Of a stretch of 64,000 nucleotides of DNA, positions 9,392 through 24,320 are shown in pieces. How positions within the stretch are numbered: position 1 is the first letter of the stretch; each line of letters starts with the position of its first letter. The notes below the pieces were generated by a model. It did not search any database. It saw nothing but the letters and a program-made list of their open reading frames with translations, and was not told where the DNA came from. Source of the DNA: Ancylobacter tetraedralis (lineage in GTDB: Bacteria; Pseudomonadota; Alphaproteobacteria; Rhizobiales; Xanthobacteraceae); the NCBI RefSeq assembly GCF_014195655.1, contig NZ_JACICD010000001.1, positions 782,682-846,681 of the forward strand, read 5' to 3'. Position numbers and translations under genes: made by a program.

Positions 9392-10186
9392 CTAAGCGGG
9401 CACAAGAAAACCCACGACCTGCTGGGCGAAGAGGTCTGCCCGCGTGCGCGGGTAGAAATGTCCCCCATCGAACGCGGCGAGCATCGCGCCCGGGATGAAG
9501 CGGGCGATGCGCTCGGACTGGGCGAAGAGGATCATCTCGTCGTCGCGCGCGCCCAGGATCAGCGTTGGCGCCCGTATGCCGCCGAGTTCCGCCACCCGGT
9601 CGAAGGCCAGCAGCATGCGTATGCGGGCGATCGCGACCGAAAGCGGCGCCAGTGTCTGCCCCGCCCGCCGAACTGCCGCGTCGAGCTCCGCCCCATGGGC
9701 GGCGATCCATTCCGCATCATAGCCCAGAACATGGGTGAGGGCCTGATAAATGTCCGGCCGGCCGGCCTCCAGAAGGGCGAGCCGCGCCTCAAACAGGGTT
9801 CGGAACCGTGCATCCGGGCCCGGCCAGCTGCCCGAGATGACGAGGCGGTCCGCTCTCTCGGGGCTGTCGATGGCAAGAGTCTGGACGACGGCGCCGCCGG
9901 TGGAATGGCCGACAAGATGCGCCCGCGCGCAGCGCTCTTCATCCATGATCTCCAGCACGTCGCGGGCGATACGCCCGATCGTATACGGCCCCTCCGGCCG
10001 GTCGCTGCGCCCGGCACCGCGATGATCGACAATCAGGAGCCGGAAGCGGGCTTCCAGCCGCTCTGCGACCGGGTCCCAGAAGTGCCCGTCACCGCCGAGA
10101 CCCGGGATCAACACCACGGCGGGGCCGCCCGTGCCACGCACCTCGTAATGCACGCGGCAGCCGTCCGAAGTCGTCAGCAGCGGCAT
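9392..10186 (-). CDS. Alpha/beta hydrolase, 3-oxoadipate enol-lactonase-like
   Basis: A 264-residue alpha/beta-hydrolase-fold protein. The oxyanion segment is LIPGLGGDGHFWD, the nucleophile elbow GHSTGGAV, the acid ILGARDDEM and the catalytic His DGGHFYP. The overall layout is closest to enol-lactonase (PcaD-like) or small-molecule esterase members. It is the last gene of the ten-gene minus-strand operon, 9 bp after the racemase-like gene, so it presumably opens a lactone, ester or amide at the end (or entry) of that pathway. The substrate is unknown. Confidence 0.8.
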   Translation of the reverse strand: MPLLTTSDGCRVHYEVRGTGGPAVVLIPGLGGDGHFWDPVAERLEARFRLLIVDHRGAGRSDRPEGPYTIGRIARDVLEIMDEERCARAHLVGHSTGGAVVQTLAIDSPERADRLVISGSWPGPDARFRTLFEARLALLEAGRPDIYQALTHVLGYDAEWIAAHGAELDAAVRRAGQTLAPLSVAIARIRMLLAFDRVAELGGIRAPTLILGARDDEMILFAQSERIARFIPGAMLAAFDGGHFYPRTRADLFAQQVVGFLVPA

Positions 10187-10195
10187 GGCCCGTCC

Positions 10196-11245
10196 TCAGA
10201 TCGGCTGCTCGCCGGTATACCCCGGCCAGGTATCGCCCAGCCGGAAGCCGTCCGGAAACGGGTCCGTCGGGTCGAGCACATATTGGTGGAAGGCGGTGAT
10301 CCAGCCCGGCCCGGTGATCGTCGGCAGCACGGCCGGCAGGTCGCCGAGCTCAGTGGTGCCGCGCAACCGTCCGACGAACTCCGTGCCGATGAGCGAGCGA
10401 TGCAGAAAGCGCTCTCCCACCTGTAGCTGTCCCTTGGCGTGCAGCACCGCCATCCGCGCGCAGGTGCCGGTCCCGCAAGGTGAGCGATCGTGCCGGCCCG
10501 GCGAGACAATGACCGTATTCTTCGAGACGAGACCTTGGTCATCTCGCTCCAGCGGCCCGGCGAACAGGGTCTGGTTGATGGTGTGGATATCTGGGTTTTC
10601 CGGGTGCACGCAGGGAATCTGCTCGGCAGCCGCCGCCTTGATGCGCTCGCCCACTTCGACGAGTTGCGCCGCCTCCCTCAGTTCAAGCCGGAAGCCGAGC
10701 GCGGCCGCGTCGACGATGGCGTAGATCATGCCGCCATAGCCGACATCTACAGTGATGCGGCCGAGCCCAGGCACGTCGACCTCGCGGTCCAGCGCGAAGG
10801 CAAAGCCGGGAACGTTGTCGAATGTCACGTTCACGCACTTGCCGTCACGACACTCCGCCGAGACTTTCACCAGCCCGGCGGGCGCTTCCAGCACCAGATT
10901 GGTGACCGGTTCCTGCATCGGAATGATACCCGTCTCCAGCAGCACGGTGACGGTGCAGATGGTGTTGGTGCCGGACATCGGCACATAATAGTCGGATTCA
11001 ATGATGACGAAGCCGGCATCGGCTTCTGGCGTCGTCGGCGGCAGAACCAGATTGACGCATTGCGAGACCCGCCCGCGCGGCTCGTTCAGTAGAAACCGGC
11101 GCAACTCGTCGCGATGCGTCTGCACATATTGCATCTTCTCGAACATGGTCTTGCCGGGCACGTCGCGCACGCCCCCGGTGATGACCTCGTTGAGTTCGCC
11201 GGCAGCGTGCGCCCCGACAACGGTGATCATCCGGCTGAAACGCAT
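10196..11245 (-). CDS. Proline racemase-family protein with Ser/Cys active-site pair
   Basis: Member of the proline racemase/hydroxyproline epimerase/trans-3-hydroxyproline dehydratase superfamily, 349 residues from the ATG at 11245, which is preceded by a GAGGAG site; an upstream in-frame start at 11305 would overlap the DapA-family gene. The two catalytic positions are Ser91 (VPMSGTNTIC, where racemases have MCGH) and Cys257 (DRSPCGTGT). A Ser-Cys pair differs from Cys-Cys racemases/epimerases and from Cys-Thr dehydratases; some 4-hydroxyproline epimerases are reported with Ser-Cys. It is about 10 bp after the DapA-family gene. A second, Cys-Cys member lies in the same operon, so the two probably act on different intermediates. 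Confidence 0.85.
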   Translation of the reverse strand: MRFSRMITVVGAHAAGELNEVITGGVRDVPGKTMFEKMQYVQTHRDELRRFLLNEPRGRVSQCVNLVLPPTTPEADAGFVIIESDYYVPMSGTNTICTVTVLLETGIIPMQEPVTNLVLEAPAGLVKVSAECRDGKCVNVTFDNVPGFAFALDREVDVPGLGRITVDVGYGGMIYAIVDAAALGFRLELREAAQLVEVGERIKAAAAEQIPCVHPENPDIHTINQTLFAGPLERDDQGLVSKNTVIVSPGRHDRSPCGTGTCARMAVLHAKGQLQVGERFLHRSLIGTEFVGRLRGTTELGDLPAVLPTITGPGWITAFHQYVLDPTDPFPDGFRLGDTWPGYTGEQPI

Positions 11246-11255
11246 CGGGCTCTCC

Positions 11256-12164
11256 TCAGCTTGCCGAACGTGGGGTAGCGGCGAGTGCGCTGACCGTCGC
11301 CTCAAGCACGCCGAGCACCCGCTCGCGCTCCGTGCCGATCAGCGGCAGGCGCGGCGCGCGCACCCATTCCGGCGCGCCGTAGACGACCTTCTCCGCCATC
11401 TTGATGTACTGCACCAGCTTGACGTCGGTATCGAGATGGAAGGCGGGGGTGAGGATGCGGTAGAGCCTGCGCGCCTCGTCGTAGCGGCCGGCCATGCACA
11501 GTTCGAATAGCTCGACGCACTCCGCCGGCCAGGCATTCGTCATGCCCGACACCCAGCCGGTGACGCCGAGTGCCGCGCTCTCCAGCAGCAGGTCGTCGAC
11601 GCCGCAGAACACCGAGAAGCGGTCGCCGCATTCATTATAGAGGTCAGTCACGCGGCGGATATTACCGGTCTCCTCCTTCACGCAGACGATGTTCTTCACA
11701 TCGGCGAGGTCGTTGAGGATGGCCGGCGTGACGTCGACACCGTAGGCGATCGGGTTGTTATAGATCATGATTGGCAGGCCGCAGCCCGTGCCGAGCGTGC
11801 GGTACCAGGCCGCCGTCTCGCGCGGATCGCTCTTGTAGGCGATAGACGGGAAGGCCATCAGCCCCTGCGCCCCCAGTTTCTCATAATGGCGAGCGGAGGC
11901 CAGAGCCTCCGTCATGCCGACATGGGCGAGCCCCGAGAGCAGCGGCACCCGGCCCGCTACCACTTCCTTGGCGGCGAGTATGACGCTTTCGCGCTCCGCG
12001 GCGGTGAGCGAAGCGTTTTCTCCCAGCATCGGCAGCACGATGACACCGGACACGCCGTTTTTGATCAGGCGGTCGATGCTGGCCTGAGTGGCCGCGAGAT
12101 CAAGGCTTTCGTCCTCCTTGAGCTTGGTGGTGACGGCAGGAAAGACTCCGGTCCAGCGGGTCAT
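11256..12164 (-). CDS. DapA/N-acetylneuraminate lyase-family aldolase or deaminase
   Basis: TIM-barrel class I aldolase-family protein (302 residues) with the Schiff-base lysine in NIVCVKEETGN (K163) and the conserved tyrosine in IMIYNNPIAYG (Y135). Family members include dihydrodipicolinate synthase and 1-pyrroline-4-hydroxy-2-carboxylate deaminase, which handles the product of D-hydroxyproline oxidation. Given the neighbouring epimerase and D-amino-acid oxidase genes, a deaminase role in an imino-acid pathway is the leading inference; biosynthetic DapA is unlikely in this setting. Its ATG overlaps the stop of the cobalamin enzyme by 4 bp. Confidence 0.87.
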   Translation of the reverse strand: MTRWTGVFPAVTTKLKEDESLDLAATQASIDRLIKNGVSGVIVLPMLGENASLTAAERESVILAAKEVVAGRVPLLSGLAHVGMTEALASARHYEKLGAQGLMAFPSIAYKSDPRETAAWYRTLGTGCGLPIMIYNNPIAYGVDVTPAILNDLADVKNIVCVKEETGNIRRVTDLYNECGDRFSVFCGVDDLLLESAALGVTGWVSGMTNAWPAECVELFELCMAGRYDEARRLYRILTPAFHLDTDVKLVQYIKMAEKVVYGAPEWVRAPRLPLIGTERERVLGVLEATVSALAATPRSAS

Positions 12165-13963
12165 CGCGTGTCCTTTCGGAAGACAGAACGGGTAGCGGCG
12201 GGTTGGTCGATGAGTGCAGTGAGGTGATCGATCAGTGCGATGGGGGTGAGGCAGGGCACGACCCCAAGAGCGGCGATGTCGGCGGTGACGTCGATCGGCA
12301 GACCCGAATTCGAGTCCTCGGGAACCTGGTTGAGCCGCCCGCCGATGCAGACCGGGATGCTGGCTCCGGCGCGAGTGAGCGCTTGGGTCACCTCGCGGGC
12401 GTAGCGCAGTGCGATACCATTATAGGTGCTGATGGCAATGATGTCCGCGCCGGCGGCCAGCGCGGCCGCGACGAGGTCGTCGGCATCGACCGAGGTGCCG
12501 CCGTCGACCGTCGCGATGCCCAGATGGCCGAGGGTGCGCTCAACGAGGTTCTTGCCGTGCTCATGCACGTCGCTGGAAGCGACGCAGGCGGTGAAGCCGC
12601 GCGCGGCGATGCGCGAGGCGGCTTCAACGGGCACCCGGCCGGCCCAGTTACGGGCGGCGTGCTCCAGTTCGTCCACCCATTCGGCCTGCACCACCGGGCG
12701 GCGCCCGCTCCACGCCGTCGCCTCCGGCACGCCGGCGCCGAAGGCGGCTTCCAGCCGCTTAGGGCCGATGCGGCGCAGGGCGAGCATCATCTGCGCTGGA
12801 TCGACGGTGTCGATGCCGGCTTCCGCGAGGCCAGCCAGCACCCGCGAGGCGAACAGCCGTCCGCCCTCCACCAGCCGATCGGCCAGCGCGTCGATCGGGG
12901 CGCGGTCGATCAGCGACGCAGAACCGGCGGCGTGCGCGGCGAGGCGATGGGCGAAGAGCTGCGCGTCGATGATCTCGTCAATATCGGGGATGCGCTCATT
13001 CTCGGTCACCGGCACCGGATTGACCGCGTGGCCTGTCGGCCGGCGTCCGAGCGCCCAGATGTCGGCCTGAAGGTAGCTCGCCAGGCTGGCATAATTGCCG
13101 GCGGGCGTGGATTTGTAGCTCACCGTGTTGCCGAAGATCATGGTGCCCGGCGTGTCGGTCACCTGTGCCAGCGCGGCATGGAACGCCATGCGCACAAGCG
13201 GCGCGGTGAAGTGGTGGCCGAAGCAGTGCGACAGCCGAGCGCCGATCAGCGTCTCGACGATGTGCTTTTCCACCAGCACCATGCCCAGCGCCGAACTCAT
13301 ATCGGCGAACAGTCCTGCGAATCCATCGTCGAGATTGGAATGCACCAGCACCTCGACCGGCTGCACGGCGATAAGGCCAAGCGCGGTGACGGTGGCGTGG
13401 GTGGTGGCAACATCGTCGTCCCAATCCGGGAGGCGGAAGGTAAAGTACTGGCCGAGATTGCCGATGGCGGTGGCGCCGGCGGCCAGAGCGCCCTTGGTGT
13501 TTTCCAGTGCCCCCGGCAGACCCAGCATGAAGTCGCCGAAATGCGCGGCGGCGGGCGCGGCGTTGGTGATGCAGGCGAAGCTCTCTGCCCCTTCCAGCAC
13601 GATGCCGGTGCCGCGTCGGCTGCCCTTCCGCATGTGCGGCGGGTAGCCCATCGACATATCGAGGGTGATGCCGAAGCGGTCCACCCGAGCGCCGTGCCGG
13701 GCGCAGGCGGCGTGAACTTCGGCGATCGCGGCGACGGTGCGCTCCACGCTGCGGAAGCCGATATGGGCGTGCTGCATGACGCGTCCGGCTAGTGCCTCGC
13801 GACGCTTGTATTCGGCTTCGCTGGCGACGCCCTGCGCGTTGAGGAAGGCGTTACGGCCGACCGTCCAGTCCCGTGCCAGCGCGCGCCCCGCGGCAACGAG
13901 TTCCCCGCCCGGCTGAAGCGTCGGTGGAACCAGTTGGTCGTGGGAGGGGAGCGGCGCGGTCAT
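12161..13963 (-). CDS. Cobalamin-binding enzyme (B12 domain fused to large catalytic region), substrate unknown
   Basis: A 600-residue protein. A C-terminal domain carries the base-off/His-on cobalamin signature DVHEHGKN (D465-x-H467-x-x-G470), followed by TVDGGTSVDADDLVAAALAA and AISTYNGIALRY, matching Rossmann-type B12 domains of mutases and methyltransferases. The N-terminal 430 residues have LDMSMGYPPHMRKGS, GNLGQYFTFRLPDWDDD, LVHSNLDDGFAGLFADMS and LSHCFGHHFTAPL. They look like a catalytic barrel and recall glutamate-mutase-type large subunits only loosely. Domain order (catalytic then B12) resembles single-chain mutases. It sits mid-operon between NIPSNAP and DapA-family genes. No known hydroxyproline pathway needs B12, which makes this the most unusual member of the cluster. 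Confidence 0.78.
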   Translation of the reverse strand: MTAPLPSHDQLVPPTLQPGGELVAAGRALARDWTVGRNAFLNAQGVASEAEYKRREALAGRVMQHAHIGFRSVERTVAAIAEVHAACARHGARVDRFGITLDMSMGYPPHMRKGSRRGTGIVLEGAESFACITNAAPAAAHFGDFMLGLPGALENTKGALAAGATAIGNLGQYFTFRLPDWDDDVATTHATVTALGLIAVQPVEVLVHSNLDDGFAGLFADMSSALGMVLVEKHIVETLIGARLSHCFGHHFTAPLVRMAFHAALAQVTDTPGTMIFGNTVSYKSTPAGNYASLASYLQADIWALGRRPTGHAVNPVPVTENERIPDIDEIIDAQLFAHRLAAHAAGSASLIDRAPIDALADRLVEGGRLFASRVLAGLAEAGIDTVDPAQMMLALRRIGPKRLEAAFGAGVPEATAWSGRRPVVQAEWVDELEHAARNWAGRVPVEAASRIAARGFTACVASSDVHEHGKNLVERTLGHLGIATVDGGTSVDADDLVAAALAAGADIIAISTYNGIALRYAREVTQALTRAGASIPVCIGGRLNQVPEDSNSGLPIDVTADIAALGVVPCLTPIALIDHLTALIDQPAATRSVFRKDTR

Positions 13964-13975
13964 CAGCGGCCTCGG

Positions 13976-14290
13976 TCAGCGCATAGGCGAGAGCGCGGTG
14001 GGGGCGAGTATGCGCGTCTGCTGGCTCTGGATCATGCCCTTGATGGCAGCGAGATAGTCCAGCCATGGGGGATGGGCGAGCATCAGCGCCCGGCGCGCCT
14101 CGCGATCAGCCATGCTGTCATAGCGCCACAGCGCGACAACATGGTTCAGTTCGCCGATCTCGGTGACGAAATGGCCAATGAACGTGCCGAGAAAACGCTT
14201 CTGGATGTCGAGGCCGAGCGTCTCATAGGCATTGAGGAAATCGCCCATCCGGCCCGGCACGATGTGGTAGTCGCGCTCTTCGAGGATCAT
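13976..14290 (-). CDS. NIPSNAP-family small protein
   Basis: A 104-residue ferredoxin-like-fold protein. It reads ILEERDYHIVPGRMGDFLNAYE and later HVVALWRYDSMADREARRALMLAHPPW, the typical pattern of NIPSNAP/dimeric alpha-beta-barrel proteins (RxYxxxPGxxxxFL, then WxYxSxxxRxxxR). Function in such operons is usually unknown; some members are monooxygenases or binding proteins. The ATG at 14290 is chosen because it falls 7 bp after the epimerase stop; the frame extends upstream only into that gene. It is 12 bp before the cobalamin enzyme. Confidence 0.8.
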   Translation of the reverse strand: MILEERDYHIVPGRMGDFLNAYETLGLDIQKRFLGTFIGHFVTEIGELNHVVALWRYDSMADREARRALMLAHPPWLDYLAAIKGMIQSQQTRILAPTALSPMR

Positions 14291-14297
14291 CGCTGCC

Positions 14298-15299
14298 TCA
14301 CGCCAACTGGAAGCCGAAAGCCAGCGGGTCGCGCTCGTCCACGGTGATGGTGTTGTGGCCGTAGACGCGGGCCCAGCCGCCAATGCTGGGGCGGATGGCC
14401 GGACGGCCTGCGACCTCGGCGGCGCTCTCCACCCGCCCATGGAACAGCGTACCGATGACGCTCTCATGCACGAACGAGTCACCAACATTCAAAAGGCCCT
14501 TCGCCACACGCTGGGCCATGCGCGAGGAGGTACCGGTGCCGCAGGGCGAGCGGTCGATGCCCTTGTCGCCATAGAACACCGCGTTGCGGCCGTCAGCCTC
14601 GGCGTGCCTGGGCCCGTCCGCCCACATGACGTGGCTGACGCCATTGATGCGCGGGTCCTCCGGATGCACCGGGGCCACCGCTGCCTGCACAGCCGCGCGG
14701 ACCGCCGGGCTCAATCTGAGGATGTCCTCGGCCTTCATGCCGTCGAGACCGGCCCAGTTCTTCTGGGGCTCGACGATGGCGTAGAAATTGCCGCCATAGG
14801 ACACATCAACGACGAGTTCGCCGATTCCCGGAACGTCGACCTTCACCCCCTCGGCATGCAGGTAGCTAGCAATGTTGAACAGCCGGACCTGATCGATAAA
14901 ACGGCCGTTGCGTGTGTATTCGACCTCCACCCGCCCGGCGGGTACTTCCAGCGCCAGCCGGCCCTCTACCTTCGGCACCACGAAGCCCTGTTCGAGCGCG
15001 ACGGTGACGGTGCCGATGGTGCCGTGACCGCACATCGGCAGGCAGCCCGAGACCTCGATGAACAGTACGCCCAGGTCGCAATCGTCCCGCGAGGGCGGAT
15101 AGAGGATCGAGCCGGACATCACGTCGTGGCCGCGCGGCTCAAACATCAGCGCCCTGCGCACCCAATCATGGTCACGCAGGAAGATCTGCCGTTTCTCCGC
15201 CATTGACACGTTGGGCAGCAGCGGCGCGCCGCCGGCCACCACGCGCACCGGGTTGCCGCAGGTATGGGCGTCGACGCAGAGAAAGGTGTGCGGGTTCAT
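14298..15299 (-). CDS. 4-hydroxyproline 2-epimerase-like (proline racemase family)
   Basis: A 333-residue proline-racemase-family enzyme with both catalytic cysteines, Cys90 in CLPMCGHGTIG and Cys253 in GIDRSPCGTGTSSR. Cys-Cys members of this length mostly interconvert trans-4-hydroxy-L-proline and cis-4-hydroxy-D-proline, and its partner downstream (FAD oxidase) is the enzyme that would oxidise the D-epimer. Whether the true substrate is hydroxyproline, its betaine or another cyclic amino acid cannot be settled from sequence. Located 15 bp after the FAD oxidase gene in the operon. Confidence 0.87.
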   Translation of the reverse strand: MNPHTFLCVDAHTCGNPVRVVAGGAPLLPNVSMAEKRQIFLRDHDWVRRALMFEPRGHDVMSGSILYPPSRDDCDLGVLFIEVSGCLPMCGHGTIGTVTVALEQGFVVPKVEGRLALEVPAGRVEVEYTRNGRFIDQVRLFNIASYLHAEGVKVDVPGIGELVVDVSYGGNFYAIVEPQKNWAGLDGMKAEDILRLSPAVRAAVQAAVAPVHPEDPRINGVSHVMWADGPRHAEADGRNAVFYGDKGIDRSPCGTGTSSRMAQRVAKGLLNVGDSFVHESVIGTLFHGRVESAAEVAGRPAIRPSIGGWARVYGHNTITVDERDPLAFGFQLA

Positions 15300-15314
15300 C
15301 GCGGGCTCCGCGTT

Positions 15315-16541
15315 TCAGTTGAAGCGTTGGATGGCAAAGGGAGCGACGTCCACGGCGGGCGGACGGCCGCCAACCAATTCAGCGATCAGCCGCCCCGTCG
15401 TCGGACCGAAGGTGAGCCCGGTATGGCCGTGGCCGAAGGCATAGAAAACATCGTCACGCCGCGGCGAGCGGCCGATGACCGGCAGCGAATCCGCCGTGGT
15501 CGGGCGATGCCCCATCCAGCGCGTGCCGCCCTCGATGTTCAGTCCCGGCAGGAAGCGGCGGCCCAGCTGAGCGAGCGCGTCGGAGCGCGCATAGTTCGGC
15601 GCGGCCTCCAGTCCGGCGAATTCCGCCGCGCCGCCAATGCGCAGCCCCGCCTCGATCGGCGTGGCGACGAAGGCACGCTCGGCGAAGATCACCTCGCGCG
15701 TGAGGGATACGCCCGGGGTAGGAAGCGTAGTGTTGTAGCCGCGCTCGCTCTCGATCAGCGCCCGGTCGCCGATCTGCCGGGCGAGTCGGCCGGACCAGGC
15801 ACCGGCGGCGATCACCAGCCGCTCGAAGGCGAGGCGCCGGCCGTCCTGTGTTTGCACGTCGCGCCCGGCGATACCGGCAACCTCGCCCTGGAGCATCGCT
15901 ACGCCGCGCGCCTCAAGATGGGTGCGCAGGCGATCGACGATGCGTTTGGGATCGGCGACATGTGACCATTGCGGGGTCATGATGGCGTGGCGGATCGTGC
16001 TCGCCAGCGCCGGCTCCAGAGCTTGTGCGGCGGCGCCGTCCATCTCGTCGCAAACGAGGCCGTGCCGGCGGCGCAGGTCATGGAAGCGTCTGTCCGCCTC
16101 AAAACCCGCGCGCGTCTCGTACACCCACAGCGCGCCGACGCGGTGCAGGTCGCCCATGAGGTCAAGCTCGACGAGCAACGGCAGAAGATCGTCATAGGTG
16201 CGGGCCGACAAGGTGGCGAGCGAGGCGGCAATCGCCTCCACGCGATCCCAACGCCCCTCCTTCAGGAAGCGCAGCAGCCAGGGCACCAGCTTGGGGAAGT
16301 GGCCGGGGCGCATCGATAGCGGACCCAGCGGATCGGCCAGCCAGCCGGGCACCTTCCGGGCGAGGCCAGGAACGGAAGCAGGAATTATCTCGGTGACCCC
16401 GATGCCGGCGGCGTTCCCGAATGAGCACTTGTCCCCTGCCGGATCGCGGTCCAGCACGCTCACCTCGTGGCCCTCCGCGCGTAGCGCCCGGGCACAGGAG
16501 AGGCCGACAATGCCGGCGCCGATGACGAGAATGCGCGACAT
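15315..16541 (-). CDS. FAD-dependent D-amino-acid oxidase/dehydrogenase (DadA-like)
   Basis: A 408-residue DAO-family flavoprotein with the dinucleotide motif ILVIGAGIVGLSCARAL at residues 4-20 and the C-terminal FAD motif GHGHTGLTFGPTTGRLI. The GTRWMGHRPTTADSLPVIG stretch is typical of DadA and D-hydroxyproline dehydrogenases. Expected reaction: oxidation of a D-amino or imino acid to the imine or ketone with electrons to the respiratory chain. Its place between an epimerase and an aspartate-dehydrogenase-like gene supports a D-imino-acid route. Confidence 0.87.
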   Translation of the reverse strand: MSRILVIGAGIVGLSCARALRAEGHEVSVLDRDPAGDKCSFGNAAGIGVTEIIPASVPGLARKVPGWLADPLGPLSMRPGHFPKLVPWLLRFLKEGRWDRVEAIAASLATLSARTYDDLLPLLVELDLMGDLHRVGALWVYETRAGFEADRRFHDLRRRHGLVCDEMDGAAAQALEPALASTIRHAIMTPQWSHVADPKRIVDRLRTHLEARGVAMLQGEVAGIAGRDVQTQDGRRLAFERLVIAAGAWSGRLARQIGDRALIESERGYNTTLPTPGVSLTREVIFAERAFVATPIEAGLRIGGAAEFAGLEAAPNYARSDALAQLGRRFLPGLNIEGGTRWMGHRPTTADSLPVIGRSPRRDDVFYAFGHGHTGLTFGPTTGRLIAELVGGRPPAVDVAPFAIQRFN

Positions 16542-16555
16542 GGCGGGCGGCTCTC

Positions 16556-17341
16556 TCAGATGACCAGGGAAGCGAAGTGGCGCCGCACCGCCTGGGCGAG
16601 GCTCAGCGCGGTGACGGCGGAGGTCTTGGGATTGTCGGGTGAGGGCCGATTGGAAAAGCTCAGCGTGGCGCTGCCCGCCGGGCTCTTGACCTCGATCTCG
16701 TGCGTGTTGGCGCTGACGGCCGGGTCGGCGATCACCTGCACGCTCACCCGTGCCGGGCCGGCGGCCAGCGCCACCGCGAGCCCGGCATTGAGGTTACGCG
16801 GGTAGCGGCGCGCCGCTTCCCCCGCGGTTCCCTCGAACAGGACGACCGCCGAGGCAAGGCGCTCCGGCGCGTGGCCGAGCGCCGCGAGCTCGGTGCTCCA
16901 CGCTGCCGGCGGCTTGCGGGAGATATAGCGCACCGTCGTGCCCTTGACGCCCGCCACCGCGGTTAGATAGTCGAGCCCGCCAATGGCGCCGGCCGGGACG
17001 ATGAGCCGGGCGCCGCTTGCCTGCGCGGCGCCGACAAGCCGCTGCAGCAACGCATCATCGGCCAGCGCGCCGGTGGAGGCGATGACGAGGCTGATGCCGG
17101 CGCTCAGCAGCTGGGGGCCATATTGCGCTACGGCGCCCTGGCCGGCCGCCTCGACGACCAGCGCCGGCCGGGCGGCGATCAGCGCCTCGACATCGGACAA
17201 GGCGCAGATGGGGGAGGAAACCTTCGTTCCGTCATGCGTCAGCACCGAAAGGCGATAGGCTGGGTCGCGGCCTAGGTCGGCGGCCAGCGCCTGGCCGATG
17301 GCACCGAAACCGATGAGAGCGATGTCCCGCGCCGCGCCCAT
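16556..17341 (-). CDS. Aspartate dehydrogenase-like NAD(P)-dependent protein
   Basis: A 261-residue protein with an N-terminal Rossmann motif DIALIGFGAIGQALAADL and the DUF108/aspartate-dehydrogenase core, including IVPAGAIGGLDYLTA, KPPAAW, and RRYPRNLNAGLAVALAA. Family members deaminate L-aspartate to oxaloacetate/iminoaspartate or run in reverse. In this operon it may release ammonia from, or reduce, a four- to six-carbon intermediate. The ATG at 17341, 4 bp downstream of the SDR stop, is preferred; a longer frame would run back into the SDR gene. Confidence 0.8.
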   Translation of the reverse strand: MGAARDIALIGFGAIGQALAADLGRDPAYRLSVLTHDGTKVSSPICALSDVEALIAARPALVVEAAGQGAVAQYGPQLLSAGISLVIASTGALADDALLQRLVGAAQASGARLIVPAGAIGGLDYLTAVAGVKGTTVRYISRKPPAAWSTELAALGHAPERLASAVVLFEGTAGEAARRYPRNLNAGLAVALAAGPARVSVQVIADPAVSANTHEIEVKSPAGSATLSFSNRPSPDNPKTSAVTALSLAQAVRRHFASLVI

Positions 17342-17345
17342 CACC

Positions 17346-18098
17346 TCACCAGGCCGACATGCCGCCATCGACGGTGAACATGGCACCGGTGGCGAAGGAG
17401 GCTTCATCCGAGGCGAGCCAGAGGATGGCGTTGGCAATCTCCACCGGCTGCGCCCAGCGATTGATCGGCGAGCGCGCCTTGAGCTTGGCCTTGAAGCTCT
17501 CGGGGTCGGGATGGCCGGCGACCATCCTGTCGAAATAGCTCGACCAGGTGACGCCGGGCGCCACGCAGTTCACCCGGATGTTCTGCTCGGCATGGTCGAG
17601 CGCCATTGCCTTGGTGAGCGCGGCGACGCCGCCCTTGGAGGCGACATAGGCCGCGCGGTCGAAGATGCCGACGGTGGCGACGTTGGAAGCGGTGTTGACG
17701 ATAGTGCCGCCGCCCTGCGCCGCCATGACAGGGATCGCATGCTTGCAGCACAGGAAGACGCCCTTGAGGTTGACCGCCATAAGTGCATCCCAGGCGTCCT
17801 CCTCGGTATTTACAACCGTACCGGGGATGCCGTAGCCAGCATTGTTGGCGAGGATGTCGAGCCGGCCGAATCGCTCCACGGCGCACTCCACCATGCGCTT
17901 CACCTCGTCACTGCGGCTGACGTCGACGGCGATGGCGGCGGCATTGGGACCGAGGCGTTCGGCGACCTGCGCGACCCCCTCGCCGTTACGGTCCGCCAGG
18001 AGGACGCGGGCACCTTCCCGCACGAACAGTTCTGCCGCCGATTCACCGATGCCGGCGGCAGAGCCAGTGATGATGGCGACCTTGTCTTTGAGACGCAT
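17346..18098 (-). CDS. Short-chain dehydrogenase/reductase
   Basis: Classical SDR of 250 residues: NAD(P) motif TGSAAGIGESAA near residues 11-22, NNAGYG, catalytic Ser in NTASNVATVG, and the YVASKGG (YxxxK) pair, ending FTVDGGMSAW. Start at ATG 18098 has a GAGGAA site; the alternative at 18125 lacks one. Likely oxidises a hydroxyl group of a pathway intermediate. It lies between the cupin and the aspartate-dehydrogenase-like gene. The Asp at the end of beta-2 (LLADRNG) suggests preference for NAD over NADP. Confidence 0.88.
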   Translation of the reverse strand: MRLKDKVAIITGSAAGIGESAAELFVREGARVLLADRNGEGVAQVAERLGPNAAAIAVDVSRSDEVKRMVECAVERFGRLDILANNAGYGIPGTVVNTEEDAWDALMAVNLKGVFLCCKHAIPVMAAQGGGTIVNTASNVATVGIFDRAAYVASKGGVAALTKAMALDHAEQNIRVNCVAPGVTWSSYFDRMVAGHPDPESFKAKLKARSPINRWAQPVEIANAILWLASDEASFATGAMFTVDGGMSAW

Positions 18099-18144
18099 GG
18101 ATTCCTCGATCGTCGGGAAGGGCACGAGCGCACGCGGCGCCGGC

Positions 18145-18687
18145 TCAAGGCTGGCGCTGGTCGTCCGGCTGCGCTGCGAACACGGTGTCGCGCTCGATCT
18201 GCAGCACGTTTTCAGGCCGCGGAAACGGCTCGGGCGTCGGTTCGCCCGGCTGGCGGGGACGGCCGATCAGGCGGAAGAAGTCCTCCAGCCCGTTCGGCAC
18301 GATCAGCCAGGTCCAGAGGATGTCCTCGGTACCTTCGTTGATAAACATGTGGCGCCGGTTGCGGCCGATGAAGAAGGCGGAGCCCGGCTGCATCACATGG
18401 CTCTCGCCGTCGACCACGGCACGACCCTTGCCACGGATCACGAAGATCACTTCCTCATTCCGGTCATGGGCATGCTCGCGCACATAGCCACCCGGCGGGA
18501 CGGTCTGGGTTCCGAAACCTATGGGAAATTCCATCGGTACGAGATGCGGGGCGAAGATCACGTCGATATGGCCATTGGCCGGTACTGGCTGCCAGTAGCT
18601 GACTTCCTCGCCCGGCTGTTTCACGAGCACATCGCCGAGATGAGAGGTCGCGTCTGCCTGAGCTGATTGGCCCGCCTGTTCCGACAT
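18145..18687 (-). CDS. Cupin-domain protein
   Basis: A 180-residue single-domain cupin. Motif 1 is seen as YVREHAHDRNEEVIFVIRGKGRAVVDG (metal-ligand pattern HxH-x4-E) and motif 2 near GSAFFIGRNRRHMFIN, together suggesting a mononuclear metal site. Such proteins may be small oxygenases, isomerases or ligand sensors. It is the first gene of the minus-strand operon and starts about 26 bp from the first palindrome upstream of it, so it is the gene most directly placed under the GntR-type control proposed here. Confidence 0.8.
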   Translation of the reverse strand: MSEQAGQSAQADATSHLGDVLVKQPGEEVSYWQPVPANGHIDVIFAPHLVPMEFPIGFGTQTVPPGGYVREHAHDRNEEVIFVIRGKGRAVVDGESHVMQPGSAFFIGRNRRHMFINEGTEDILWTWLIVPNGLEDFFRLIGRPRQPGEPTPEPFPRPENVLQIERDTVFAAQPDDQRQP

Positions 18688-18715
18688 GTGACTGCTCCGC
18701 TCGCCGGGTTATGAT

Positions 18716-18730
18716 TGAATACAATATTCA
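18716..18730. promoter_or_regulatory. Palindromic operator upstream of the cupin operon
   Basis: Perfect inverted repeat TGAATA-CAA-TATTCA. It lies 29 bp from the cupin start codon in the divergent cupin/GntR intergenic region. The arms match the core of the second palindrome at 18822-18840, so both are probably sites for the neighbouring GntR regulator. Confidence 0.65.
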
Positions 18731-18821
18731 GCCTAGGCACTCAGAAAGGAGAATAAAAGATGAAAAAATAGGCATGTTTGCTGCATTAGTGCCTACTAAA
18801 TGTTCTTGTTGATCCAGATCA

Positions 18822-18840
18822 ATTGAATATCGTATTCAAT
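18822..18840. promoter_or_regulatory. Palindromic operator upstream of the GntR gene
   Basis: Perfect 8+3+8 inverted repeat ATTGAATA-TCG-TATTCAAT ending 14 bp before the GntR start codon. The placement suggests autoregulation. The sequence contains the same TGAATA/TATTCA half-sites and 3-bp spacer as the other site 91 bp away. Confidence 0.7.
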
Positions 18841-18854
18841 GTGGAGCCAGTCGG

Positions 18855-19529
18855 ATGGTTGTGAAAATAGGTCGCCAGTCGTTGACGGACCAAATCGTCA
18901 CCGAATTGCGACGACAGATCATTGTCGGCCAGCTGCCCGAAGGCGCACCCCTGCGCCAGGAGAAGCTAGCCAGTGAGCTGGGGGTTTCCCGCGTTCCGCT
19001 GCGGGAGGCGATCCGCCAGCTGGAGGCGGAGGGCCTCGTCGTATCGGAACTGCACAAGGGGACGGTCGTGTCCTCGCTGTCGCTGGAGGAGATCGAGGAA
19101 CTGTTCGAAATCCGCATGCGCATGGAAACCTGGCTGTTCGAGGTGGCCATCCCGCGGTTGACGGAAGAGGATTTCGCCCTTGCCGAGGCCGTCACCGACG
19201 AGGCCATGGCGAGCGGCAGCGTGGAAAACTGGGGCGAACTGAACTGGCGCTTCCACGAAACACTCTATCGCCCCAGCGGCCATCTGATCGCGCTGAAGCT
19301 GCTGCGGACCGTGCATGACAACGCCAACCGTTACGTGAACCTGCAGATCGCGGTTGCGGAAGACGTGGAACGCGAGCTGTCCGACCACCGCGCTCTCATC
19401 GCCTTCGCCCGGCTCGGCGACATCCGCCGGGCCGTCGACACGCTACGGGCGCACATCCAGCGCGTCTCGCGCAACCTCATCATGTCGCTGGCCGAAGGCC
19501 GGCTCGGAAAGGCGCGCGACATCGCTTAA
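18855..19529 (+). CDS. GntR-family regulator, FCD (FadR-like) subfamily
   Basis: A 224-residue transcription factor with an N-terminal winged helix (LPEGAPLRQEKLASELGVSRVPLREAIRQLEAEGLV, residues about 26-62) and an all-helical FCD effector domain from about residue 80, where the metal-binding residues appear as FHETLY and the later DHRALIAFARLGD. FCD members bind carboxylate or amino-acid effectors. It is divergent from the cupin operon and 73 bp upstream of the ABC importer, so it probably controls both through the two palindromes. Confidence 0.9.
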   Translation: MVVKIGRQSLTDQIVTELRRQIIVGQLPEGAPLRQEKLASELGVSRVPLREAIRQLEAEGLVVSELHKGTVVSSLSLEEIEELFEIRMRMETWLFEVAIPRLTEEDFALAEAVTDEAMASGSVENWGELNWRFHETLYRPSGHLIALKLLRTVHDNANRYVNLQIAVAEDVERELSDHRALIAFARLGDIRRAVDTLRAHIQRVSRNLIMSLAEGRLGKARDIA

Positions 19530-19567
19530 CGACCAGGCTGCCGGCCCATGTTGGCACCCTGCGCAAC

Positions 19568-19582
19568 GGTCCGGAACGGACC
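19568..19582. repeat. Short palindrome before the ABC binding-protein gene
   Basis: Perfect GGTCCG-GAA-CGGACC inverted repeat, 20 bp upstream of the binding-protein ATG. It could be an mRNA hairpin near the ribosome site or a protein site; its arms do not resemble the GntR palindromes. Confidence 0.4.
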
Positions 19583-19602
19583 CCAGAGAGAAGGGAACTG
19601 AC

Positions 19603-20709
19603 ATGCGTATCAAGAGCATACTCTACGCTGCCGTTGCCGTGGCCGCGCTGACGGGAGCCGCCCGGGCCGATATTCTCATCGGCACGGCGGGGCCGACCAC
19701 CAACGCCGAGGCGCTTTTCGGCACCACCTGGCAGAACGGCATGGAACTCGCCGTTCGGCAAGCCAATGCGGCGGGCGGCGTGCACGGCCAGAAGCTGGTC
19801 CTGGTGCGCGATGACGATGGCGGCGATCCTAAGCAGGGCACGCTGATCGCGCAGAAGCATTGCGACGAGGCCGGCATGCTCGCCGTGGTCGCCAATTTCA
19901 ACAGCGGCGTGACCATCCCGTCATCCGATGTCTACAATCGCTGCGGCATGCCGCAGGTGACCAACGCCTCGAACCCTAAGGTCACCAAGGCCGGCTACAA
20001 GAACCTTTTCCGGCCCATCGCCAACGACCTGTCGCAGGGCGCGGCCCCGGCCGACTACGCTCTGGCCAAGCTCGGCGCCAAGAAGGCCGCCGTGGTTCAC
20101 GACAAGCAGGCCTTCGGCCAGGGCGTCGCCGAAGTGTTTCGCGAGAACTTCACCAAGGGAGGCGGCACGATCACGTCCTTCTCCGGCATCGCTCAGACCG
20201 ACGTCGATTTCAGTGCCCTGCTTTCCTCCATCCGCGCCGAGAATCCGGACGTGGTCTATTTCGGCGGCGTGATGCCGGCGGTCGGCCTGTTCGTTAAGCA
20301 GGCTCGCGAGCTCGGCATCAAAGCGACCTTCTTCGCCGCCGACAGCGCCTTCACCCCGGACTTCATCGCGGGCGCCGGGCCCGCTTCGGAAGGCACCGTC
20401 GTCTCCTTCCAGGCCCCGCCCTACGATTCCTCTCCCGCCCTGCAGAAGTTCGCAACTGACTACAAGGCCGCCTTCGGCGAGGATCCCGGCCCGTACTCGG
20501 CCTATGGCTATGTCGAGGCCACCATCATTATCGAGGCGATGAAGAAGGCGCCGACCCCGCTCACCCGCGCCGGTATCGTCACCGAGATCGCCAAGAGCGA
20601 CTTTGACGGCCTCGTCGGTCACGTCGCCTTCACGCCGGCAGGCGAACTGCAGAAGCCCTTCTTGTTCCTCTACGCGGTCAAGGGCGGCAAGTTCGCGCTG
20701 GTCCAGTAA
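19603..20709 (+). CDS. Branched-chain-type ABC transporter substrate-binding protein
   Basis: Periplasmic binding protein of the LivK/type 1 fold (368 residues) with a Sec signal peptide MRIKSILYAAVAVAALTGAA cut after ARA. The mature start DILIGTAGPTTNAEALFGT and VYNRCGMPQVTNASNP are typical of this family. It should capture the substrate for the LivHMGF-type importer encoded next. Given the catabolic operon divergent from it, an amino- or imino-acid related compound is likely rather than branched-chain amino acids as such. The start at 19603 follows an AAGGGA site. Confidence 0.92.
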   Translation: MRIKSILYAAVAVAALTGAARADILIGTAGPTTNAEALFGTTWQNGMELAVRQANAAGGVHGQKLVLVRDDDGGDPKQGTLIAQKHCDEAGMLAVVANFNSGVTIPSSDVYNRCGMPQVTNASNPKVTKAGYKNLFRPIANDLSQGAAPADYALAKLGAKKAAVVHDKQAFGQGVAEVFRENFTKGGGTITSFSGIAQTDVDFSALLSSIRAENPDVVYFGGVMPAVGLFVKQARELGIKATFFAADSAFTPDFIAGAGPASEGTVVSFQAPPYDSSPALQKFATDYKAAFGEDPGPYSAYGYVEATIIIEAMKKAPTPLTRAGIVTEIAKSDFDGLVGHVAFTPAGELQKPFLFLYAVKGGKFALVQ

Positions 20710-20856: not shown

Positions 20857-21798
20857 ATGGGCGCCCTCATTCTCCAGCAGACGATCAACGCCCTCACCGT
20901 CGGGTCGATCTACGCGCTCATCGCGCTCGGATACACCATGGTCTATGGCGTGCTGCGCCTCATCAACTTCGCCCATAGCGAGCTGTTCACCGCTGGCGCC
21001 TTCATCGGCCTCGCCCTTGCCGGCGCGCTCGGCATTGCCGGTCACCCAACGGGCGGTCTGCTCGTGGGCCTCATTACCTTCGTGCTCGTCGGCCTTGCCG
21101 GCGTCAGCGTCGAGATCGTCGCATACCGCCCGCTGCGCGGCACCTCGCGCCTCGCGCCGATGCTCTCGGCCCTCGGCATGGCAGTGGTGATCCAGAACGC
21201 GGTGATGCTGATCGGCGGCCGGCGGCCGATGATCTACCCCTCCTTCCTGCCGTCGGGGGTGATCGACGTCTTCGGCGCCGTCGTCAGTTACAAGCAGATC
21301 ACCATCTTCCTCGTCGCCGTGGTGCTGATGATTGGGCTGGAGCTGTTCGTGAACCGCACCAATCTCGGCGTTCGCATTCGGGCGGTGGCCGAGAACGCGG
21401 AGACCGCCTCGCTGGTCGGCATCAACCCGAACATGGCGATCTCGCTGATCTTCTTCATAGGCCCCGGCCTGGGCGCCGTTGCCGGTATCCTTTATTCCTC
21501 CTTCTATGGCGTGGCGACCTTCACCATGGGCTTCGTCATCGGGATGAAGGCGTTCACCGCCGCCATTCTCGGGGGCATCGGCTCCATTCCCGGCGCGGTG
21601 CTGGGCGGGTTCCTGCTCGGCGCCATCGAGACCTTCGGCACCGCCTGGATGCCGGTGCTGACCGGCGGCGTCATCGGCACGGAATACCGCGACATCTTCG
21701 CCTTCTCCGTCCTTGTCCTGATCCTGCTATTTCGCCCCGCCGGCCTGCTCGGCGAGCATGTCAGCGAAGAAACCAGAGTGTACAAGAGTGACTTCTGA
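20857..21798 (+). CDS. ABC transporter permease, LivH type
   Basis: Inner-membrane permease (313 residues, about eight hydrophobic segments) of the branched-chain amino-acid transporter family. Signature segments include NALTVGSIYALIALGYTMVYGVLRLINFAHSE near the N-terminus and the cytoplasmic loop GIRIRAVAENAETASLVGIN-like sequence that contacts the ATPases. It overlaps the LivM-type gene by 11 bp. Confidence 0.93.
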   Translation: MGALILQQTINALTVGSIYALIALGYTMVYGVLRLINFAHSELFTAGAFIGLALAGALGIAGHPTGGLLVGLITFVLVGLAGVSVEIVAYRPLRGTSRLAPMLSALGMAVVIQNAVMLIGGRRPMIYPSFLPSGVIDVFGAVVSYKQITIFLVAVVLMIGLELFVNRTNLGVRIRAVAENAETASLVGINPNMAISLIFFIGPGLGAVAGILYSSFYGVATFTMGFVIGMKAFTAAILGGIGSIPGAVLGGFLLGAIETFGTAWMPVLTGGVIGTEYRDIFAFSVLVLILLFRPAGLLGEHVSEETRVYKSDF

Positions 21799-22822
21799 CG
21801 CACCGAACACAGGCGGAGCGGCGGCCGGCGCGCTGGGCCCGGCCCCTGTCCGCACGATGCGGGTCTGGCCGGGGGCGCTCGCCATGGCGCTGGTGCCGGT
21901 GCTGGCACTGATCGCCGGCCAATTCCTGCCGGCCTATCCGCTGCGCATCCTCGACATGATCCTGCTCTATGCCATCCTCGGCCTGGGGCTGAACATCATC
22001 GTCGGCTATGCCGGGCTGCTCGACCTCGGCTACGTCGCCTTCTACGCCATCGGCGCCTACTCCTGGGCGCTGCTCGCCTCCGGCCAGTTCGACATCCACC
22101 TGCCTTTCGCGCTGGTGCTGCTGATCGGCGCGAGCCTCGCCGGCCTTGCCGGCATATTGCTCGGCATTCCGGTGCTGCGGCTGCGCGGCGACTATCTCGC
22201 CATCGTTACGCTCGGCTTCGGCGAGATCATCCGCGTGCTGATGAACAATCTCGATGGGGTGACCAACGGCCCGCAGGGGATCGCCCGCATCGATGAGGCG
22301 CATCTGTTCGGCTGGACGCTGAGCACGCCGGAGGATTTCCTCTATCTGCTCGTGGCGATGCTGGTGGTGGTGTTCTTGTTCGTCTGGCGTATCCAGGAGA
22401 GCGCGCTCGGCACGGCGCTGTCGGCCGTGCGCGAGGATCAGGACGCGGCGCGCGGCTGCGGCATCGACACGACGCGGGTGAAGCTGGTGGCCTTCGCGCT
22501 CAGCGCATTCATCGGCGGGGGCTGCGGCGTCGTCTTCGCCGCCATGCAGCGCTTCGTCAGCCCGGAGAGCTTCACCTTCTGGGAATCTCTCATCATCGTG
22601 CTGGTGATCGTGATCGGCGGCCTCGGCAACCCGTTTGGCGCGCTGCTGGGCGCGACCCTTTTGATCCTCATCCCGGAACTTCTGCGCGCTTATGCCGACT
22701 ACCGGCTGCTGCTCTACGGCATGGCGCTCGTCATCATCATCCTCGCCCGGCCGCGCGGCATCATCAGCCGCGCCTTCGGACCAAGCTGGCTGATGCGCCG
22801 GCTGGGAGGCGGCAAATGCTGA
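21788..22822 (+). CDS. ABC transporter permease, LivM type
   Basis: Second membrane subunit (344 residues from GTG 21788). The family segments GLGLNIIVGYAGLLDLGYVAFYAIGAY and LRLRGDYLAIVTLGFGEIIR are present, as is the ATPase-contact loop ALSAVREDQDAARGCGID. The GTG inside the end of livH is preferred to an ATG at 21758, which would add a ten-residue extension encoded within livH. Its stop overlaps the ATPase ATG by 7 bp. Confidence 0.92.
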   Translation: MTSDAPNTGGAAAGALGPAPVRTMRVWPGALAMALVPVLALIAGQFLPAYPLRILDMILLYAILGLGLNIIVGYAGLLDLGYVAFYAIGAYSWALLASGQFDIHLPFALVLLIGASLAGLAGILLGIPVLRLRGDYLAIVTLGFGEIIRVLMNNLDGVTNGPQGIARIDEAHLFGWTLSTPEDFLYLLVAMLVVVFLFVWRIQESALGTALSAVREDQDAARGCGIDTTRVKLVAFALSAFIGGGCGVVFAAMQRFVSPESFTFWESLIIVLVIVIGGLGNPFGALLGATLLILIPELLRAYADYRLLLYGMALVIIILARPRGIISRAFGPSWLMRRLGGGKC

Positions 22823-23655
22823 CCTTCGACCACGTCACCAAGCAGTTCGGCGCGCTCAAGGCGATCGACGATGTGTCCTTCAAGGTGAAGCCGGGCATCA
22901 TCACCGCGGTGATAGGGCCGAACGGGGCCGGCAAGTCGACCCTCGTCAACATGGCGGCCGGCTCCTATGGCGTCAGTTCCGGCCGCATTCTGGTCGACGG
23001 CGTCGAGCTGCAGCGACTTCCCAAGCACCGCATCGCCCATGCCGGGCTGGCGCGAACCTACCAGAACATCCGCCTGTTCGACGGCATGAGCGTGGTGAAG
23101 AACCTCGAAGTGGCGCTGGTGCCGCCGAAGGTGGGGCGGCTCGTCGCCGACACGTTCGGCCTCACTGGCCGGGCGGCGGCCGAGGAACGGCGCGCGCGTT
23201 GCCACGCGGTGCTGGAGCGCCTCGGCCTCGCCGCCCATGCCGAGCAGCAGGCGGGAAGCCTTGCCTATGGCCAGCAGAAGCTGGTCGAACTCGCCCGCGC
23301 CGTGGTCGCCGGGCCCCGCGTGCTGCTGCTCGACGAGCCGGCCGCCGGGCTCAATCATGGCGAGACCGAGCTGCTCAAGCAGCACATCCTCGCTTTGCGC
23401 GCCCCCGACCTCGCCATGGTGCTGATCGAGCACGACATGAAGCTCATCATGTCCATCTCCGACACCATCGTGGTGATGAATCGCGGGCAGGTGCTCGCGC
23501 AGGGAAATGCCGCCGAAATCCGGGCCAACACCGAAGTGCAGGAGGCGTATCTTGGCCAGCCAGGAGCCATCAGGGACATCGAGGCCGCTGCTCGCGGTCG
23601 ACGCAATCGAGTCCGGATACGGGAGGGTGAAGGTCTTACATGGCATCAGCCTTAA
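22816..23655 (+). CDS. ABC transporter ATPase, LivG type
   Basis: Nucleotide-binding subunit (279 residues) with Walker A GPNGAGKST, Q-loop LARTYQNIRLF, Walker B VLLLDEPAAGL and switch His in VLIEHDMKLIM. The ABC signature is unusual: the stretch before Walker B reads AGSLAYGQQKLVE, that is LAYGQQ rather than LSGGQ, which is common in LivG proteins. The last 35 codons overlap the next gene. Confidence 0.92.
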   Translation: MLTFDHVTKQFGALKAIDDVSFKVKPGIITAVIGPNGAGKSTLVNMAAGSYGVSSGRILVDGVELQRLPKHRIAHAGLARTYQNIRLFDGMSVVKNLEVALVPPKVGRLVADTFGLTGRAAAEERRARCHAVLERLGLAAHAEQQAGSLAYGQQKLVELARAVVAGPRVLLLDEPAAGLNHGETELLKQHILALRAPDLAMVLIEHDMKLIMSISDTIVVMNRGQVLAQGNAAEIRANTEVQEAYLGQPGAIRDIEAAARGRRNRVRIREGEGLTWHQP

Positions 23656-24307
23656 GGTGATGCCGGGCGAGATCGTCTGCCTCATCGGCCCCAATGGCGC
23701 GGGCAAGACCACGCTGCTGCGCACCATCAGCGGGCTGAACCGCGCCACAAGCGGGACCATCCGCTTCAAGGGCGAGGATGTCGTCGGGCTCAAGCCGCAC
23801 CAGATGGTCCGGCGCGGCGTCGGCCATTGCCCGGAAGGGCGGCGGGTCTTTCAGCTCTCGGTCGAGGAGAACCTCGTCACCGGCTACATCGCCGGCCGCG
23901 GCAAGAGCTTCGCCGAGCTGCGCGACCAGGTCTACCGGCTGTTCCCGATCCTCGGCGAGCGGCGCCACCAGTCGGCCGGGCGGCTCTCGGGCGGCCAGCA
24001 GCAGATGGTGGCGATCGGCCGCGCGCTGATGGGCAGCCCGGAGCTTCTGCTGCTCGACGAGCCCTCGCTCGGCCTCGCGCCGATCATCATCCACCAGATC
24101 TTCGAGATCGTGCTCAAGCTGGCCGAGAGCGGGGTGTCGATCATTCTCGTCGAGCAGAACATCGACCTGTCCTTCGAGGTAGCCGATTTCGTCTACGCGC
24201 TGGAGCATGGTGCGCTGCAATGCTCGGGCCCCGCCGCGAAGATCGCGGCAGACCCCCGTATCAAGGACATCTATCTGCCGGGCCTCGACAGCCACGGCGC
24301 ACAGTAA
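23552..24307 (+). CDS. ABC transporter ATPase, LivF type
   Basis: Second nucleotide-binding subunit, about 251 residues from TTG 23552, with Walker A GPNGAGKTT, signature LSGGQQQM, Walker B LLLLDEPSLGLAP and His in ILVEQNIDL. TTG 23552 is chosen because a GGAGG site lies 6-7 bases upstream and the product starts at the usual point; this produces a 104-bp overlap with livG. An in-frame ATG at 23507 would lengthen the overlap to 149 bp. Confidence 0.9.
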   Translation: MASQEPSGTSRPLLAVDAIESGYGRVKVLHGISLKVMPGEIVCLIGPNGAGKTTLLRTISGLNRATSGTIRFKGEDVVGLKPHQMVRRGVGHCPEGRRVFQLSVEENLVTGYIAGRGKSFAELRDQVYRLFPILGERRHQSAGRLSGGQQQMVAIGRALMGSPELLLLDEPSLGLAPIIIHQIFEIVLKLAESGVSIILVEQNIDLSFEVADFVYALEHGALQCSGPAAKIAADPRIKDIYLPGLDSHGAQ

Positions 24308-24320
24308 GGCGGTCAGCATC

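Follow-up and report, generated by a model that had tools for sequence, protein, structure and literature searches.

A B12 protein of predicted mutase fold in a conserved operon with hydroxyproline-type genes in Ancylobacter tetraedralis

Results

A conserved operon pairs a B12 protein with hydroxyproline-type genes

We analyzed a 64,000-nucleotide stretch of the Ancylobacter tetraedralis genome (the window; contig NZ_JACICD010000001.1) in which the gene for a 600-residue cobalamin (B12) protein lies among genes for enzymes of the hydroxyproline type. We propose with moderate confidence that positions 9392-25091 form a single catabolic unit under local regulation, devoted to a proline-type (cyclic) amino or imino acid, and that the B12 protein serves in it as a single-chain adenosylcobalamin enzyme. 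A sequence-only reading of this DNA had described a ten-gene operon, and the operon is real: the ten open reading frames (ORFs) are all open at the coordinates in Table 1 and occupy the minus strand between 18687 and 9392, with gaps from cupin to hydrolase of 46, 4, 14, 15, 7, 12, -4 (an overlap), 10, and 9 bases at the chosen starts. Pfam agrees with every gene assignment (Cupin_2, adh_short, Asp_DH_C with NAD_binding_3, DAO, Pro_racemase twice, NIPSNAP, B12-binding, DHDPS, and Abhydrolase), and the gene set is kept across relatives. The span proposed earlier, 9392-18687, is right for the catabolic arm but takes in just that arm; to it belong in addition the divergent control region, gntR, livKHMGF, and probably, judging from position alone, a second short-chain dehydrogenase/reductase gene (SDR2) that extends it to 25091.

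The same neighborhood recurs in 12 genomes of the genus and in five named loci outside it. A full-length B12 homologue is present in 13 of 29 other genomes of the genus; in 12 of these 13, the genes for the cupin, SDR, aspartate-dehydrogenase-like protein (AspDH), DadA-like protein, first proline-racemase-family protein (PR1), NIPSNAP, B12 protein, second proline-racemase-family protein (PR2), and hydrolase lie together beside gntR and the liv transporter, an arrangement that we call type A. The dapA gene is present in 11 of the 12, and gene order is slightly altered at two loci (L020 and L021); the thirteenth genome (G014, locus L024) has a different cluster. A contig of the cultured strain A. 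vacuolatus DSM 1277 (L029) carries the operon as well. Outside the genus, the operon type is found in Brucella/Ochrobactrum (L039, L040, L045), Lichenifustis (L049), and Methylocapsa (L050); in Lichenifustis and Methylocapsa dapA is absent and NIPSNAP has moved to the end. This recurrence in relatives shows that the grouping of the genes is not due to chance. At the Lichenifustis and Methylocapsa loci, NIPSNAP is followed by the 3HCDH-like gene of rhizobial clusters, so that these loci mix both cluster types.

The control region carries a pair of palindromes, TTGAATACAATATTCAG at 18715 and TTGAATATCGTATTCAA at 18823, spaced by 108 bases. There were no matches in 100 shuffles of the window, and the two sites are the sole places in the 5.03-Mb genome at one mismatch or fewer; the reversed control pattern has none. 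The pair was found again, with up to two mismatches per site, in 13 of the 15 other type-A loci. One site at L045 is a symmetric variant, TTGGATA-N3-TATCCAA, and the best sites in Lichenifustis and Methylocapsa have 3 and 4 mismatches, respectively. The gntR gene adjoins the operon in all 12 type-A genomes of the genus, and we infer that the GntR protein binds the twin palindromes. The window holds no Rfam match at gathering scores, so no cobalamin riboswitch was found there; it also holds no tRNA.

The B12 protein has the predicted fold of adenosylcobalamin mutases

The predicted fold of the 600-residue protein is that of the adenosylcobalamin mutases, with glutamate mutase E as the best fold match. 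The DxHxxG B12 motif is present: D465 and H467 are found in 108 of 108 main-clade rows and G470 in 107 of 108. This motif occurs in methyltransferases too, and the B12-binding domain alone is closer by sequence to MtaC and MetH. PF02310 was the sole Pfam match; PF06368 (Met_asp_mut_E) is absent from both the protein and the genome, and no Pfam match at E 0.001 was seen for a B12-binding_2 helical cap before the B12 domain. Profile comparison against glutamate mutase E gave a probability of 2.2%, a lead only. When the barrel profile was searched against solved structures, the only matches were short ones, to adrenodoxins and to a designed bundle (best E 0.0045), and we judged them to be chance.

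We counted residues at 37 chosen positions, in rows that include near-copies and some with in-frame stops. H65, R96, D102, R112, D144, N169, D212, D213, E232, R258, H312, E321, R324, E330, D465, and H467 are invariant in the 108 main-clade rows. Nine of these, R96, D144, D213, E232, E321, R324, E330, D465, and H467, are conserved in three distant outgroup rows as well. In those three rows H65 and H312 are replaced by other residues and R258 is Lys. Given that H65 and H312 are invariant in the main clade and changed in the outgroup, they are candidates for substrate handling. A distant sister group of the protein (L028, L140, L141; 32-34% identity) lacks H65, H141, and H312, and at L140 its B12 protein sits in an open frame of 1151 residues.

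The pathway had been proposed to be possibly undescribed, and our searches on the protein agree: among family models, solved structures, plasmid annotation, and keyword-searched open-access literature we found no characterized member of its family, and the keyword searches returned no description of the family or its pathway. PHROGs has no family for it, and viral contigs hold no relative. Nine plasmid records match it, annotated as 'cobalamin-dependent protein' (3), 'hypothetical protein' (1), or 'DUF1349 domain-containing protein' (1, a partial match), or with no gene listed (4). As far as searched, the family seems new within a known enzyme class.

The racemase-family and AspDH-like proteins

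The operon shares with trans-4-hydroxyproline catabolism, as described in an excerpt of PMC4113996, genes of the 4-hydroxyproline epimerase (4HypE), DAO, and DapA types; to the set given there (4HypE, D-hydroxyproline oxidase, DapA-type deaminase, and aldehyde dehydrogenase) the window adds the B12 enzyme, AspDH, cupin, NIPSNAP, SDR, and hydrolase. The aldehyde dehydrogenase of a Phyllobacterium hydroxyproline operon, our query for an alpha-ketoglutarate semialdehyde dehydrogenase, has no match in the window at 1e-10. PR1 is a 4-hydroxyproline epimerase by model (NF010578, 574 bits against a cut-off of 376), with Cys/Cys motifs PMCGHGT and SPCGTGT. PR2 scores under the cut-off of the 4HypE models (267.7 against 376); its motifs, PMSGTNT and SPCGTGT, place a catalytic Ser with Asn three residues on and Cys opposite, the residue pattern that would predict a Ser/Cys 4-hydroxyproline epimerase. 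Ser/Cys proteins of this family with a Ser-x-x-Asn motif are a known 4-hydroxyproline epimerase type in the same excerpt (PMC4113996), where the rule for trans-3-hydroxyproline dehydratase (t3HypD) is Thr at the second catalytic place. We rejected t3HypD as the identity of PR2, which has Cys, not Thr, at that place and scores 439.5 with the equivalog NF047722, under its cut-off of 550.

The AspDH-like protein matches PF01958 (100.7 bits) and two subfamily models (NF009829, 194.5 over 184; NF009828, 193.5 over 177), and falls under the cut-off of the NadX equivalog (175.1 against 206.55). It aligns to 1j5p and 2dc1 with a conserved His, invariant in 13 of 13 rows. The sequence-only reading had argued that the B12 enzyme, a second racemase-like protein, and AspDH all go beyond the hydroxyproline route. 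The B12 enzyme and AspDH are indeed extra, but the argument from the second racemase is weaker, since the excerpt of PMC4113996 counts the Ser/Cys type as a 4-hydroxyproline epimerase.

Neighbors of the B12 gene across the family

Relatives of the B12 protein were found in 215 stretches in a scan of 84,980 species genomes; of 385 genomes drawn from the class, 17 match it at 1e-40, the window's own included. We examined 80 distinct named loci, the best of the 215 stretches, of which many are rhizobial and not independent of one another, together with 19 distant loci. Neighbors were tblastn matches at E 1e-10 that covered 35% or more of the query and lay no more than 10 kb away, with identity floors of 45% for SDR, SDR2, and aldehyde dehydrogenase (ALDH) and 35% for livK; at least 5 kb was available on both sides of the B12 gene in 64 of the 80 and 12 of the 19 loci, and the counts exclude seven loci (L120-L123, L028, L140, L141).

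The 10-kb flanks of the B12 gene in the 80 loci contain GntR (54), ProC-like (52), cupin (46), AspDH (46), hydrolase (40), livK (40), NIPSNAP (39), SDR2 (34), SDR (32), CL15 (30), E1b/E1a/E2 (29/28/27), ketosteroid-dehydrogenase-like (27), 3HCDH (26), DAO (17), proline-racemase-family (16), DapA (14), PhyH (5), and ALDH (1) genes; cupin, AspDH, ProC, and proline racemase are all absent from 8. The distant loci have ProC-like (11), PhyH (4), GntR (2), AspDH (1), DAO (1), and DapA (1) genes and no proline racemase, and 7 of the 19 have none of cupin, AspDH, ProC, and proline racemase. B12 and ProC-like genes lie at most 300 bases apart on one strand in 17 loci, including Tistlia and Rhodovibrionaceae.

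In a tree of 111 rows made by a quick method, with some weak forks, proline-racemase genes accompany B12 in three branches: the window's clade, Phyllobacterium zundukense, and a Mesorhizobium bin. In P. zundukense a hydroxyproline-type operon is divergent from GntR-ProC-B12; the Mesorhizobium bin has the same kind of operon, 67-78% identical, without ProC.

Other arrangements were seen along the way. One locus (L131, contig C20 of G638) has five tandem B12-protein places by tblastn, one with an in-frame stop, and then two ProC-like genes. Rhodobacter-type and other lineages (L125, L137, L082, L086, L076, L100, L105) have a PhyH-type dioxygenase gene close to those for the B12 and ProC-like proteins, which suggests a hydroxylation step. 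CL15 is a 290-residue protein of rhizobial-type B12 clusters without annotation or Pfam match (L078:15539-16408, and 29 further loci among the 80); its AF2 model (pLDDT 89.9) has a full-length match to the Pictet-Spenglerase McbB (TM 0.79, 15% identity), which is unexpected in a catabolic-looking cluster.

Other hydroxyproline genes and cofactor supply in the genome

Seven proline-racemase-family genes are present in the genome, including the two of this operon, along with a second GntR/DapA/DadA/4HypE cassette on another contig (L145; contig C2 of G000, 60000-79900). These argue against the operon being the organism's sole route of the hydroxyproline type. None of the three PF02310 matches in the genome is on the contig of the second cassette, so plain 4-hydroxyproline degradation may not need the operon in the window. 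Given the epimerase types of PR1 and PR2, the seven racemase-family genes, and the separate cassette, the operon probably serves a compound related to, but different from, 4-hydroxyproline. An aldehyde-dehydrogenase relative (30% identical) lies about 3 kb from the second cassette on the opposite strand, and the cassette's divergent region holds a weak palindrome, TTGCAAATTGGATCCAA.

The genome also encodes a CobN-family protein and a CobO-type adenosyltransferase some 4 kb from it, both within a span of about 7 kb; on the strength of this pair, it probably makes its own adenosylcobalamin. The CobN family includes magnesium chelatases.

Two traces of mobile DNA were noted in the window. A phage-type integrase fragment at 8025-8798, between guaA and the operon (PHROG 1, 100.5 bits), is possibly the relic of an island, and a 972-residue frame at 28046-30964, which by eye joins transposase-like to conjugative relaxase/helicase-like sequence, suggests mobile-element debris.

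Table 1 Features of the proposed catabolic unit.
Feature	Position	Strand	Evidence or remark
Alpha/beta hydrolase, last gene of the catabolic operon	9392..10186	-	PF00561 97.8 bits
Proline-racemase family PR2, Ser/Cys type	10196..11245	-	PF05544 431.7 bits
DapA-family lyase/deaminase	11256..12164	-	PF00701 161.2 bits
600-aa cobalamin protein	12161..13963	-	predicted GlmE-like barrel (~residues 15-450) fused to B12-binding domain (~455-590)
NIPSNAP protein	13976..14290	-	PF07978 95.1 bits
Proline-racemase family PR1, Cys/Cys type, 4-hydroxyproline epimerase by model	14298..15299	-	NF010578
DadA-like FAD oxidase/dehydrogenase	15315..16541	-	PF01266 195.6 bits
Aspartate-dehydrogenase-like protein	16556..17341	-	PF01958, PF03447; NF009829, NF009828
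SDR	17346..18098	-	PF13561 224.7 bits; NCBIfam PRK06138.1 340.6 over cut-off 312; ATG 18098 chosen (alternative GTG 18125)
Cupin protein, first gene of the catabolic operon	18145..18687	-	PF07883 63.8 bits
Divergent control region, 167 bases	18688..18854		between cupin and gntR
Operator-like palindrome TTGAATACAATATTCAG	18715..18731		one mismatch
Operator-like palindrome TTGAATATCGTATTCAA	18823..18839		perfect
GntR-family regulator with FCD domain	18855..19529	+	PF00392 61.4 bits, PF07729 69.5 bits
LivK-like substrate-binding protein	19594..20709	+	PF13458 195.1 bits
LivH-like permease	20857..21798	+	PF02653 135.2 bits
LivM-like permease	21758..22822	+	PF02653 168.2 bits
LivG-like ATPase	22816..23655	+	PF00005, PF12399
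LivF-like ATPase	23507..24307	+	PF00005 110.2 bits; start uncertain, overlaps livG as listed
Second SDR (SDR2), after livF	24207..25091	+	PF13561 208.5 bits; 35% to operon SDR; start uncertain

Discussion

In the pathway that we propose, the compound would enter through the Liv-type transporter and would probably be sensed by the GntR protein, acting at the twin palindromes. It would then be processed in the manner of hydroxyproline catabolism: epimerized by a proline-racemase-family protein, oxidized to an imine by the DadA-like enzyme, and deaminated or ring-opened by the DapA-like one. The B12 protein, one chain with the predicted glutamate-mutase fold, would work as an adenosylcobalamin enzyme, with the cofactor held through DxHxxG in the C-terminal domain; its barrel would make the 5'-deoxyadenosyl radical and either rearrange the amino or imino acid or eliminate a group from it. 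The substrate of the AspDH-like protein would be an amine or imine from this route. An amino- or imino-acid pathway dependent on B12 had been proposed for this DNA, and that much is supported: amino/imino-acid catabolism is what the neighbors suggest, and the B12 protein is predicted to fold like the adenosylcobalamin mutases. The narrower proposal of carbon-skeleton rearrangement names just one reaction open to such a fold.

Several other readings would account for part of these data. One, which we consider unlikely, is that the B12 protein is an adenosylcobalamin counterpart of HypD, the glycyl-radical 4-hydroxyproline dehydratase, and takes the hydroxyl off a hydroxylated proline, with a neighboring ProC-like protein reducing the pyrroline carboxylate. 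To our knowledge, the DxHxxG enzymes of glutamate-mutase fold are mutases, not dehydratases, and this precedent weighs against a dehydratase. The idea is inspired by HypD itself, which works with Δ1-pyrroline-5-carboxylate (P5C) reductase, encoded next to HypD in some clostridia according to an excerpt of PMC9044972; relatives of the B12 protein likewise pair a presumed radical enzyme with a ProC-type reductase. ProC-like genes are the commonest enzyme neighbors, adjacent on the same strand in 17 loci, and a TPGG[ILV]T loop is kept in 56 of 66 ProC-like rows. In separate branches B12 is accompanied by hydroxyproline operons or by a gene of PhyH type (5 of the 80 loci and 4 of the 19 distant ones), and His and acidic residues are conserved in the barrel. 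On the other side, the ProC-like proteins are only distant kin of P5C reductase, under the ProC equivalog cut-off (110.4 against 196.75), the window's genome has no ProC-like partner except one 30% homologue, and the extra genes are left unexplained. Compared with the HypD of that excerpt (PMC9044972), the B12 protein differs in fold and cofactor, the window has no ProC partner, and dehydration would be hypothetical. Were this unlikely reading correct, the family would be a radical dehydratase of hydroxylated proline-type compounds that does without a glycyl radical and is built on the His-on fold of glutamate mutase; its product would pass to a ProC-type imine reductase in many of its alphaproteobacterial hosts and to the epimerase-oxidase-deaminase set in the window.

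It is quite unlikely that an ordinary hydroxyproline operon has gained an unrelated B12 module by chance. Most loci with the B12-cupin-AspDH-hydrolase module do lack proline-racemase genes, which speaks for such a gain, but here the B12 gene lies inside the operon with a 4-base overlap with dapA, its place is kept in 12 genomes of the genus and the five named loci outside, and its association with proline racemase is seen in three branches.

A divergent but true glutamate mutase, making 3-methylaspartate for deamination by the AspDH-like protein, is very unlikely. The best fold match is glutamate mutase E, AspDH adjoins B12 in 46 of 80 loci, and its signature columns are kept; the window protein has a GlmE-like barrel and a GlmS-like B12 domain, as in GlmE/GlmS of Clostridium cochlearium. 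However, it is one chain with the barrel first, has about 10% identity and no PF06368 match, and AspDH is not hit in 34 of 80 loci and 18 of 19 distant loci. Three arginines of glutamate mutase bind substrate; in a hand alignment to GlmE relatives, itself weak and with hhalign too weak to settle it, the Arg motifs QPR, TRNN, and RH face QHA, MGYP, and HFG, so that these motifs are not visible, and the site is His-rich, with H65 and H312 in 108 of 108 rows. Glutamate-mutase-E ORFs in two Pseudomonadota (L116 and L117) have, by eye, a B12-domain-like part before the E part, the opposite order to the window protein.

Kinship with the pyridoxal-phosphate (PLP)-dependent lysine 5,6- or ornithine 4,5-aminomutases is highly improbable: in aminomutases an insert after DxHxxG holds the PLP lysine, and this insert, seen in the aminomutase beta ORF of L119, has by eye no counterpart in the window protein. 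Least probable is a corrinoid methyltransferase, for example a demethylase of proline betaines, which we ranked low on the missing cap domain and the whole-chain fold rank, yet to which the B12 domain alone is nearer, through MtaC and MetH.

Adenosylcobalamin isomerases are a small class in which each member has distinctive radical chemistry. With 215 stretches in one species-level genome collection, a confident predicted fold, no assigned reaction in anything we searched, a small regulated operon, and culturable soil bacteria as hosts, the reaction of this family is directly testable. If the proposed catabolic unit is as we describe it, proline-type amino-acid catabolism in Alphaproteobacteria associated with soil and plants would gain a branch that depends on B12.

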